Shown: positions 27,333 to 59,558 of the stretch, one piece after another
How positions within the stretch are numbered: the stretch's first letter is position 1
How the letters are laid out: every line of letters starts with the position of its first letter
Assembly: GCA_027488975.1 (NCBI GenBank)
Contig: JAIYAQ010000006.1
Span: forward strand, 62,001 to 126,000
DNA: 64,000 bases
Direction of reading: 5' to 3'
DNA from: Cyanobium sp. E1_MAG_00006
GTDB lineage: Bacteria > Cyanobacteriota > Cyanobacteriia > PCC-6307 > Cyanobiaceae
Position numbers and translations under genes: made by a program
The notes under the pieces: generated by a model
Database searches by the model: none
Seen by the model: the letters and a program-made list of their open reading frames with translations, nothing else
Told to the model about the DNA's origin: nothing

Positions 27333-27716
27333 ATGTCCGCTACCACCGACAACATTCTCGAACAGCTGAAGACCCTCTCGCTGCTGGAAGCCTCTGAGCT
27401 TGTCAAGCAGATTGAAGAGGCCTTCGGTGTGTCCGCCGCCGCGTCCGCTGGCGTCGTGATGGCCGCTGCACCCGCAGCTGCCGCTGAGGCCGCCGAAGAG
27501 AAGACCGAATTCGACGCCATCCTCGATGGCTTCGATGCCGCTGCCAAGATCAAGGTGCTGAAGGCTGTCCGTGAGGCCACCGGCCTCGGCCTGGGCGAAG
27601 CCAAGGCTCTGGTTGAAGGCGCTCCCTGCCCGATCAAGGAAGGCATTTCCAAGGCTGACGCCGAAGCCATCAAGAAGGCTGTGGAAGAGGTCGGCGGCAA
27701 GGTCTCCATCAAGTGA
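27333..27716 (+). CDS. rplL: 50S ribosomal protein L7/L12
   Basis: [37 protein letters not shown]...EKTEFDAIL...[22 protein letters not shown]. Confidence 0.98.
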
Positions 27717-27796: not shown

Positions 27797-27825
27797 ACCG
27801 GTCCCCTCGGGGGCCGGTTTTTTTG
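27797..27825 (+). terminator. Rho-independent terminator of the rplJL operon
   Basis: ACCGGTCCC-CTCG-GGGGCCGGT followed by a T run. Confidence 0.85.
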
Positions 27826-27914: not shown

Positions 27915-28010
27915 AAAAAAGCCCCGCCGAAGGCAGGGCTTGAGCCGGAACGCTTCCGGGAGTCTGTCCTCGTTTCGACCCCGGAAGTGGTGTCCCGCAC
28001 TCCTCACACG
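27915..28010 (-). ncRNA. Yfr2-like small RNA (proposed)
   Basis: Minus strand: -35-like TTGCCT (28045-28040), 18-nt spacer, -10-like TATGGT (28021-28016), predicted start near 28009, GTGTGAGGAGT (28009-27999), hairpin CTTCCGGG...CCCGGAAG, then terminator AGCCCTGCC-TTC-GGCGGGGCT-TTTTTT. Confidence 0.65.
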
Positions 28011-28112
28011 AACAGACCATACGGTGGGAGGAAAAGGGGAGGCAAGGTCTGGCGGGCGCTCTGCTAACTGGCACAGCACTGGCACACCTCGCGGGGGCGC
28101 CTCGTGCTGCCG

Positions 28113-28877
28113 TCAGGGGCGGAATGGAATCACTTTCAGGGCGATCGGTCCCTGCGTCTGCAGCTGGGTCTGCGTTCCCATCGGCGTCAGCGGGGCCAGG
28201 ATGCGGCCTGGGCTGGAGAACTTGCTCGGTTGTAGGCGGGGCGCGCTGGTCAGACCCGCACCGCCACCGCGTTCCTGACCGAGAAGCTGGTTCAGGGGCG
28301 TGCCGTTGGCGAAATACACGTGGCTGAGGGTCTGCTGGCCGTACACCCGTCGCTGCAGCTGCCAGCCCGGCTCCATCCGGATCATCACGAAGCCGTCGCG
28401 GTCCCGTAGGGGCACCAGGCCCTGCCCCACCAGCAGCTGGCTGGGTTCGCCGGGGCTCATGGCCAGCAGGGCCAGGGTCGTGCCGCGTTGTTCCAGGCGC
28501 AGGCGGTAGCGGCTGGCCAGGTCCTCCTCGCCGATGCGCAGTGAGTAGCCGTTGCTGTCGAGGTAGCGGCTGCAGATGCCCGTGAAATCAAAGCGGTTCA
28601 GGGCCGGATCGATCAGCCCGTCGGGACGCTGTTCCCAGCAGCGTGGCTGGGGCTGGATCTGCTCCAGCACGAGCAGAGTCCAGTCGCCGCGGCCCACCGG
28701 CTTGGCCAGCACCGCGAAGCGACTGCCATCCAGAGGCCTGCTGCTGAACAGGGTCATGGCCGCACTGCCGGTCGGCAGGCTGAGGGCCACGGCGCCCGCT
28801 GTGGCACCGGCTGTGGCGGCGGCCAGGCCAAGCCTGCGCCAGGACCTGCCAGGCCAGCGGCTGTAGGTTCGCTGCAT
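28113..28877 (-). CDS. DUF3747-like secreted protein
   Basis: Signal-like N-terminus [33 protein letters not shown] and FAVLAKPVG...[17 protein letters not shown]. Confidence 0.65.
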
Positions 28878-28937
28878 GGTGCTCTCCTCGAAGCTGCCTG
28901 GGAGCTGAGTTGTACCGGATCGGCAGGAGATCGCCCA

Positions 28938-29789
28938 GTGCCAGCAGATCAAGCCACCACCCCGTCCAAGGCTGCATCCGGGGCCGCCGCAGCACCGCGT
29001 GTGGTGGCCGCCGCCTGCGACGGCGCCTGCAGCGGCAATCCCGGCCCCGGTGGCTGGGGCTGTCTGCTGCGCTTTGAGGACGGCTCCGTGCAGGAGTTCG
29101 GTGCGATGGAGGCGAACACCACCAACAACCGCATGGAGCTTTCGGCGGCGCTTACCCTGCTGCAGAAGCTCAGAGACCTTCCCCGTCATCCGGATCTGTC
29201 GATCCGAACCGATTCGAAGTATCTGATTGATGGCTACAGCCGCTGGATCCAGGGCTGGAAGCGCAAGGGCTGGCGCACCGCCGCCGGGGCACCGGTGCTC
29301 AACCGCGACCTCTGGGAGGCCCTTGATGCCGCCCGGCTGCCGGATCTGCCGTTCACCTATGTGAAGGGTCACAGCGGTGATCCGGATAACGACCGCTGCG
29401 ATGCGATCGCCGTGGCCTTCTCCAAGGGCGGCCGCCCCCAGCTCGCCCGGGGCGACTACGGCGGTCTGATGGTGGAGGATCCCGGCGCCGCCCAGCTCCC
29501 CCAGCCCGCAGCTGACGCCGTCCCGGAGCCGGACCCAGCACCCGCGGCACTGCAGCAGCTCCTCAGCCGCCTCGAGCTGGCGGATCGCCTGGCAGCCGGG
29601 GGCTATGCCCTCAGCCTGGCGGAGCTGGCCCAGCTGGTGGAACAGCCGCTCAAACGCCTGGAGGGCCGCCAGGGTCCATGGAACTGGCGCGACTGGCAGG
29701 TGGTGCCGGCCGGGGAGGGTCGCTGGCGCCTGCGACGCGACGCGTCAGGATCGGTGGATACCCGTGATGGGGACGCACAGGATGGCTGA
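28938..29789 (+). CDS. rnhA: Ribonuclease HI with C-terminal extension
   Basis: [59 protein letters not shown]. Confidence 0.93.
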
Positions 29790-57185: not shown

Positions 57186-59558
57186 ATGCTTCAGGTGGTG
57201 CCCGACACGGCGGAGACCGCGGCTTCCGAGGCCGCGCCCGCAGCTGCTGCGGCACTCCTGGATGGCGTTCCTGCTGGGCTGAGCGGCCCGCGCTCGATCC
57301 GCTGCGCCGACGACTACGGCATCGCCCTGCCGGACTGGCTGCGCCGCTGCATCGAGCACGTGCCGCCCGGCGCGGGTGACAGCTGCCCCACCGACACCGA
57401 GGGGCTGCTCGCTTCCGCCTTCCACTTCGCTTATCAGCTGCATAACGGCCAGGTGCGGGCCAGCGGCGAGCCCTACATCTGCCACCCGGTGGCGGTGGCC
57501 GACCTGCTGCGCGACATCGGCGCCAGCGCCGGTGTGATCGCTGCCGGCTTCCTGCACGACGTGGTGGAGGACACCGATGTCACCCCCGAGGAGATCGAGG
57601 CGCACTTCGGCGCTGAGGTGCGCGGCCTGGTGGAGGGGGTCACCAAGCTGGGCGGCATCCATTTCACCAACAAGACCGAAGCCCAGGCGGAGAACCTGCG
57701 GCGCATGTTCCTGGCGATGGCCAGCGACATCCGCGTGGTGCTGGTGAAGCTGGCCGACCGCCTGCACAACATGCGCACCCTCGGGGCGCTGAAGCCGGAG
57801 AAGCAGCAGCGCATCGCCCGCGAAACCCGCGAGATCTACGGGCCCCTGGCCAACCGCCTCGGCATCGGCCGGCTGAAGTGGGAACTGGAGGATCTGGCCT
57901 TCAAGATCCTCGAGCCGGAGGCCTTCCGCGAGATCCAGCAGCAGGTGGCCAGCAAGCGCTCCGATCGCGAGGAGCGCCTGGGGGTGACGGCCGGACTGCT
58001 GCGCGAGCGGCTGCTGGCGGCGGGGCTGGAGGGGGTGGACGTGAGCGGCCGGCCCAAGCATCTCTATGGCATCTGGAGCAAGATGCAGCGCCAGCAGAAG
58101 GCGTTCCACGAGATCTACGACGTGGCGGCGCTGCGCATCATCTGCCCGAATCTCGAGAGCTGTTACCGCGCCCTGGCGGTGGTGCACGACACCTTCCGGC
58201 CGATCCCCGGCCGCTTCAAGGATTACATCGGTCTGCCCAAGCCCAATGGTTATCAGTCGCTGCACACGGCGGTGATCGGCCGTCACCGGCCGATCGAGGT
58301 GCAGATCCGCACCGCCGAGATGCATCAGGTGGCGGAGTTCGGTATTGCGGCGCACTGGAAGTACAAGGAGGGAGGGTCGCCTGCTGCGATCGGCAACGAC
58401 GCCGAGCGCTTCAACTGGCTGCGCCAGCTGGTGGATTGGCAGAAGGATGATGTCGGTGAAGACAGCAGCGACTTTCTGCGCTCGATCAAGGAAGACCTCT
58501 TCGATGAGGAGGTGTATGTGTTCACCCCCAGCGGTGATGTGGTGGGACTGCGTAAGGGCTCGACGGCGGTGGATTTCGCCTATCGCATCCACTCCGAGGT
58601 GGGCAATCACTGCCAGGGCGTGCGCATCAACGACCGCCTCTGTCCGCTGGCCACGCCGCTGCAGAACGGTGATTTCGTGCAGATCGTCACCGCCAAGTCG
58701 GCCCATCCCAGCCTCGACTGGCTGAATTTCGTGGCCACCCCCACGGCGCGCAATCGCATCCGCCAGTGGTACAAGAAGAGCCACCGCGAGGACAACATCA
58801 CGCGCGGCATGGCCATGCTGGAGCGGGAGCTGGGCCGCGACGGTTTCGATGCCCTGCTCAACGGCGAGGCGATGGCCAAGGTGGCCCGCCGCTGCAACCT
58901 GGTGGGCACTGAGGATCTGCTGGCCGCCATCGGCTTCGGCGGGGTGACCCTGCACCAGGCGCTCAATCGCCTGCGCGAGGAGCTGCGCCTGCTTTCGGCT
59001 GCGGCGGTGCCGGTTCAGAGCAATGAGGAGCTGGCCCGCACGGTGTCGGCCCAGGGGGAGCAGGCCGCCGCCTCGGCAGCTCCGCCGGCCACCGCCCACG
59101 GCGACGCCAGCCCGATCGTGGGGCTCGAGGGTCTGGAATACCGGCTCGGGGGCTGCTGCAGCCCATTGCCGGGTGAGGAGATTTTGGGCACGGTCGCCCT
59201 TGGCAACCACGGCATCACGATTCACCGCCAAGACTGCGGCAACTTGGTCAACGTGCCTGCCGAGCGGCGCCTGCCGGTGCGCTGGAACCCGCTGGCGGTC
59301 GAGGAGCAGCGCCGCCGCTACCCGGTGCAGCTGCGCATCGAGGTGCTCGATCGGGTGGGTGTGCTCAAGGACATCCTCACCCGCCTCTCCGATCACCGCA
59401 TCAACGTGAGTGACGCCCGCGTGCGCACCAACCCCGGCAAACCGGCCCGGATCGACCTGCGCGTGGAGCTGCTCAGCGCCGTCCAGTTGCGCAACACCAT
59501 GGATCAAATCCGCTCGATGGCGGATGTGCTCGACATCGCCCGTACGGGGATCGGCTGA
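57186..59558 (+). CDS. Bifunctional (p)ppGpp synthetase/hydrolase (RSH)
   Basis: HD region FLHDVVEDTDVT, RelA_SpoT YDVAALRII...GRFKDYIGLPKPNGYQSLHT, TGS EVYVFTPSGDVVGLRKGSTAVDFAY, ACT C-terminus. Confidence 0.96.
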   Translation: MLQVVPDTAETAASEAAPAAAAALLDGVPAGLSGPRSIRCADDYGIALPDWLRRCIEHVPPGAGDSCPTDTEGLLASAFHFAYQLHNGQVRASGEPYICHPVAVADLLRDIGASAGVIAAGFLHDVVEDTDVTPEEIEAHFGAEVRGLVEGVTKLGGIHFTNKTEAQAENLRRMFLAMASDIRVVLVKLADRLHNMRTLGALKPEKQQRIARETREIYGPLANRLGIGRLKWELEDLAFKILEPEAFREIQQQVASKRSDREERLGVTAGLLRERLLAAGLEGVDVSGRPKHLYGIWSKMQRQQKAFHEIYDVAALRIICPNLESCYRALAVVHDTFRPIPGRFKDYIGLPKPNGYQSLHTAVIGRHRPIEVQIRTAEMHQVAEFGIAAHWKYKEGGSPAAIGNDAERFNWLRQLVDWQKDDVGEDSSDFLRSIKEDLFDEEVYVFTPSGDVVGLRKGSTAVDFAYRIHSEVGNHCQGVRINDRLCPLATPLQNGDFVQIVTAKSAHPSLDWLNFVATPTARNRIRQWYKKSHREDNITRGMAMLERELGRDGFDALLNGEAMAKVARRCNLVGTEDLLAAIGFGGVTLHQALNRLREELRLLSAAAVPVQSNEELARTVSAQGEQAAASAAPPATAHGDASPIVGLEGLEYRLGGCCSPLPGEEILGTVALGNHGITIHRQDCGNLVNVPAERRLPVRWNPLAVEEQRRRYPVQLRIEVLDRVGVLKDILTRLSDHRINVSDARVRTNPGKPARIDLRVELLSAVQLRNTMDQIRSMADVLDIARTGIG

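Follow-up and report, generated by a model that had tools for sequence, protein, structure and literature searches.

Directly behind the ribosomal protein gene rplL, the 64-kb stretch of DNA analysed here (the window) harbors on its minus strand a short structured element, the 5′-end of which is complementary to the core of the small RNA Yfr1. The question arises whether this element is a gene of the Yfr2 family, as an earlier note on the same DNA had suggested, or only the structured end region of one of its neighbours. On the grounds of sequence and comparison, it is very probably a yfr2 gene possessing its own promoter and its own terminator. Its features and surroundings are compiled in Table 1.

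Table 1. Features of the yfr2 locus and its surroundings (window positions)
Feature	Position	Strand	Remarks
yfr2 sRNA gene (Yfr2 family, Rfam Cyano-1)	27915..28009	-	~95 nt, 5′-end inferred at 28009
5′ motif GTGTGAGGAGT	27999..28009	-	fully complementary to the Yfr1 core; extends to 12 nt if G 27998 is included
Central hairpin	27953..27987	-	CTTCCGGG(G)TC / GACTCCCGGAAG, conserved 12-nt loop GAAACGAGGACA
Rho-independent terminator of yfr2	27915..27941	-	10-pair stem and T-run; conserved in homologues
-10 element TATGGT	28016..28021	-	6 nt before the inferred start
-35-like TTGCCT	28040..28045	-	present, without conservation in relatives
Upstream promoter box GCCAGTTAGCAGAGCGCCC	28054..28072	-	-63 to -45; candidate activator site
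rplL (ribosomal protein L7/L12)	27333..27716	+	convergent neighbour; Pfam PF00542, PF16320
Terminator on the rplL side	27797..27818	+	terminator scan
DUF3747-domain gene upstream of yfr2	28113..28904	-	start codon provisional; Pfam PF12565; conserved neighbour
RNase H gene (rnhA)	28938..29789	+	next conserved neighbour; Pfam PF00075

Results

Identification of a yfr2 gene

The whole window was compared with 4227 Rfam families by cmscan. The sole family exceeding its gathering cut-off was Cyano-1 (RF01701), which we take to be the Rfam name of the Yfr2 family. The match (28013-27944, minus strand) extended from end to end of the model (positions 1-69 of 69) and reached 44.9 bits, just 4 bits above the cut-off of 41 bits; many relatives score higher. 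The earlier note had assigned the element to the Yfr2/Cyano-1 type and had regarded a missing covariance-model hit and missing conservation as evidence against this assignment. A full-length match above the gathering score is present, and sequence, structure and position are all kept in relatives. The published coordinates of yfr2, yfr3, yfr4 and yfr5 coincide with Rfam matches in the MED4-like genome G152.

The 11-nt match to the Yfr1 core (27999-28009), from which the note had started, is perfect. In the window, a single occurrence of the 11-mer contrasts with 0.02 expected ones, and its complement ACTCCTCACAC is found exactly twice in the whole genome, namely at the yfr2 locus and in Yfr1. 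Since an 11-mer alone is weak evidence in 2.7 Mb, we judged the locus to be real because of the covariance-model match and the conservation. A chance match was ruled out by the Rfam match, covariation and synteny.

We classify the gene as an ordinary member of the known Yfr2 family, to which Yfr2-Yfr5 of Prochlorococcus MED4 and Yfr2a-c of Synechocystis 6803 belong and whose common free 5′ motif is (G)UGUGAGGAG. Gene and family share a hairpin with a 12-nt GAAAC..AGGA loop, an own terminator, a length of about 87-95 nt and a near-complement of the Yfr1 core. They differ in the base pairs closing the loop, GUC/GAC in the window gene as opposed to GUG/CAC in the family. Moreover, the genome studied contains a single Cyano-1 match, whereas MED4 has four yfr2 genes, and the window gene has a fixed place behind rplL, while yfr2 positions are unconserved in published accounts.

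Structure and conservation of the RNA

The stem arms CTTCCGGG and CCCGGAAG of the central hairpin reside at 27987-27980 and 27960-27953, respectively, and the stem exhibits a bulge near the loop, which like that of Cyano-1 includes GAAAC and GGA. The terminator sequence AAGCCCTGCCTTCGGCGGGGCTT comprises positions 27941-27919; its T-run TTTTTT (27920-27915) overlaps the last bases of the stem. Thus, the 8-bp hairpin, the terminator with T6 and the length of roughly 95 nt were found at the places indicated by the earlier note. The RNA was predicted to fold with -48.3 kcal/mol (z -3.6), a value attained by none of 200 shuffled sequences. In the predicted fold, the first 7 nt (UGUGAGG-type 5′ motif) are unpaired with a probability of at least 0.99, and bases 8-10 of the motif are paired within the RNA, as is mostly base 11.

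An alignment of 51 homologues located on the rplL side disclosed invariant GTGAGG and GTCGAAAC sequences as well as an invariant part of the terminator T-run. Out of the 22 base pairs of the structure described above, 17 had changed on both sides; one covarying pair is G-C in 23 homologues and A-U in another 23. For these 22 pairs, 91.7% of the cells in the alignment were paired; shuffling lowered this value to 84.6%, and sliding the partners to 59% or less. A close relative (L051) contains an identical RNA sequence. Within the genus, a Cyano-1 match was obtained in 21 of 25 genomes (20 above the cut-off), including all 14 near-complete ones.

Promoter and 5′-end

The earlier note had described a promoter consisting of TTGCCT, an 18-nt spacer and TATGGT. 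All three parts could be located, of which the -35 region did not reveal any conservation among 57 relatives. By contrast with the shuffle mean of 1.2, nucleotides T-12, A-11 and T-7, anchored at the inferred +1, were kept in 46 of these relatives. Further upstream, 48 of the 57 relatives contain the box core G[ACG]CA[GC][TC][TC] between -66 and -59 (shuffle mean 0.9). With one relative per genus, the -63 box was present in 31 of 38 cases; kinship within a genus is ignored by the promoter shuffles, but is partly accounted for by the one-per-genus count. A wider pattern of the box gave three matches in the genome. The -63 box looks like an activator site. At the yfr2 promoters of MED4, the GntR regulator PMM1637 binds to the CGRE1 motif (PMC6778093).

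The published yfr2 5′-ends of MED4, MIT9313 and SS120 start with GTG (PMC1242208). The inferred start at 28009 is consistent with the published Yfr2 5′-ends of MED4 and MIT9313, and a TATGGT sequence with the same spacing also precedes the one of MIT9313. Promoters of yfr2 copies situated elsewhere than behind rplL (L158, L159, L163) contain the palindrome ACTGGCACAGTGCCAGT or a close variant downstream of the -63 box. A related direct repeat, GTGCCAGTGCTGTGCCAGT, is located in the window at ~28085-28067 on the minus strand.

A conserved place behind rplL

The position right behind rplL given by the earlier note proved correct, rplL being the convergent neighbour. On the other side, the DUF3747 gene, which has the same orientation as yfr2, stops 104 nt before the yfr2 start. 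Loci of the genus containing the rplL-side copy show the order rplJ-rplL, convergent yfr2, DUF3747 gene and rnhA. We also analyzed a family sample of 61 genomes, about one per genus, in 54 of which rplL was detected. A convergent yfr2 gene was found 61-681 bp (median 130) behind rplL in 39 of these 54 genomes. Of the sample genomes, 32 gave just one Cyano-1 match, which lies behind rplL in 23 of them. A pattern derived from the window copy led to 15 named relatives, including Vulcanococcus and freshwater Synechococcus/Cyanobium, all of which have an rplL-side yfr2. Outside the family, coordinate comparison yielded an rplL-side yfr2 in only two of 63 genomes of the class (G224 and G242, ~2.7 Mb, both of one other family).

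According to the literature, the loci of yfr2 genes are not conserved (PMC6778093; PMC1242208). The genomes that match MED4 (G152) and SS120 (G010) by their yfr2 coordinates have no yfr2 behind rplL. A genome matching MIT9313 (G071, locus L157) does harbor a yfr2 there, which scored 40.2 bits and thus just below the cut-off; G071 was taken as MIT9313-like because the coordinates of its other yfr2 agree with those published for MIT9313. The view of unconserved loci holds for the marine strains compared at that time, but not for the family as a whole. The rplL-side copies may already be listed by Gierga et al. 2009.

Copy number and partner RNAs

Apart from the window gene, the 2.7-Mb genome did not yield any Cyano-1 match, even at E<=1, though a very divergent second yfr2 could escape the model. 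Elsewhere in the same genome there is one typical Yfr1 gene (RF01116, 68.3 bits). The first 12 nt of the window Yfr2 are complementary to the core of this Yfr1 and one base flanking it. Yfr1, which the earlier note had proposed to locate elsewhere in the genome, is thus present with the matching core, and the core was kept by every one of the 15 Yfr1 genes fetched from the genus. Across the genus, an exact 11-nt complement is the normal situation and no peculiarity of the window gene. Exact complementarity is not strictly needed, since base 9 is G in many of the family's other genera, where it forms a G-U pair with the core of Yfr1. Cofolding of Yfr2 with Yfr1 of the same genome was calculated to gain 16.2 kcal/mol over the separate folds. 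Yfr1 with a shuffled core gained 6.0 kcal/mol on average, and none of 200 such variants was as good as the real Yfr1.

A Yfr10-like candidate was also noticed in this genome (L081:1472-1531, minus strand; G000:C22 ~58960-59020). It contains the core CATTCCTCACACC and a terminator, has a sub-threshold Yfr1 score of 26.7 bits and lies near a high-light-inducible-protein-like gene. In relatives of the genus, yfr2 copies that are not adjacent to rplL have a Yfr10-like gene within ~100-250 bp. The two genes are arranged in tandem (L034, L035, L056, L057), convergently (L053, L058) or divergently (L059). In high-light Prochlorococcus, Yfr10 was reported to lie upstream of Yfr2 (PMC6778093), which this pairing fits, orientation aside. 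Yfr1 (RF01116) and Yfr10 carry the complementary core, and both types are present in the window's genome, the latter as a candidate. They represent the complementary strand of the motif, have a different structure and are targets or partners of yfr2 rather than its relatives.

Search in phages

Neither pattern searches of IMG/VR nor phage records disclosed any phage-borne Yfr2. Two near-identical IMG/VR contigs (L145:1082-1143, minus strand; L146:2827-2888, plus strand) contain a Yfr1-like core and a terminator-like hairpin. The viral Yfr1-like matches scored 35 bits, below the cut-off, and by a rough estimate several such pattern matches lie within chance, to which these elements may be due.

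Discussion

Family membership, structure, promoter elements and position of the element are established on the level of sequence and comparison, from which we infer that an RNA is produced from the yfr2 locus. The same structures might nevertheless be explained as an end region, i.e. either the 3′ UTR of the DUF3747 gene releasing a processed fragment or a bidirectional terminator serving the rplKAJL operon. Such an explanation has a precedent, as the screen of Axmann et al. in 2005 filed an element of MIT9313 and WH8102 (Cluster 226) as a 'possible bi-directional terminator of the rplKAJL operon', which was untested there (PMC1242208). It concerns the same operon as the rplL-side yfr2, read as a terminator rather than an RNA, and the two are probably identical. 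Read-through from the DUF3747 gene is possible as well, given its strand and the short distance of its stop. However, rplL has its own, separate terminator, and a terminator alone has no need of an invariant 5′-end and loop, a conserved -10 element or a -63 box. In addition, Yfr2 is independently transcribed wherever it has been mapped (PMC1242208), and in some relatives keeping yfr2 (L028, L032) the DUF3747 gene was not found within ~700-800 bp. We thus regard an end region as improbable; a terminator and nothing else was held unlikely in view of the separate rplL-side terminator and the conserved -10 element and -63 box.

That the locus is a decayed, yfr2-derived copy which has lost its expression or function is still less plausible. 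The Rfam score, lower than in many relatives, would agree with decay, but promoter, 5′ motif, loop, stems and terminator are intact, the same RNA sequence recurs in the close relative and there is no other match in the genome. It is hardly conceivable that the plus strand is the functional one, encoding a Yfr1- or Yfr10-like RNA by way of the core at 27999-28009. This core is exact, and the plus strand folds well (z -3.7), which is to be anticipated when the opposite strand forms a hairpin. Neither a Yfr1 (RF01116) match in the window (cmscan) nor a terminator between 28009 and 28200 (terminator scan) was found on this strand, and a proper Yfr1 exists elsewhere in the genome. A plus-strand Yfr1/Yfr10 was rejected accordingly, as the core ACUCCUCACAC is not followed by a terminator hairpin and lacks an Rfam match.

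For the minus-strand yfr2 gene, analogy makes a mechanism of the MED4 type most likely. In MED4, Yfr2 relieves the repression of a porin leader by Yfr1 in a reporter system, and Yfr1 protects Yfr2 from RNase E (PMC6778093). The 5′-end GUGUGAGGAGUG of the window Yfr2 would pair with CACUCCUCACAC of Yfr1 and also with the Yfr10-like RNA, GUGUGAGG being the motif on which this titration would depend. Both RNAs would be taken away from their mRNA targets, and Yfr2 would in turn be shielded from RNase E by the pairing. Binding and counteraction of Yfr1 are predicted from the 12-nt complement and the gain on cofolding. Pairing would need some opening of Yfr2, because motif bases 8-10 and mostly base 11 are engaged in the predicted fold. 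As the sole Cyano-1 match, the gene would be responsible for all Yfr2 function in the cell.

Beyond the finding of the earlier note, our analysis shows that the place behind rplL and the promoter box are conserved and that only one copy is detectable. One may speculate that, in this lineage, the rplL-side yfr2 is the ancestral copy of the family, inherited vertically and kept because its convergent place behind rplKAJL, along with the -63 box, couples the amount of Yfr2 and hence the Yfr1 network either to the synthesis of ribosomal proteins or to a dedicated activator; we consider this idea rather doubtful at present.

Yfr2 and Yfr1 are among the few RNA-on-RNA regulatory pairs common to nearly all cyanobacteria. 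The survey qualifies the view that yfr2 genes lack a conserved position, as one copy has such a position in the window's family and in one other family. The interplay of both RNAs was elucidated in MED4, a strain with four copies of yfr2 for which no genetics is available. Provided that a strain can be manipulated, a clean deletion test would become feasible in a lineage where just one yfr2 is detectable, together with one gene each for Yfr1 and a Yfr10-like RNA.
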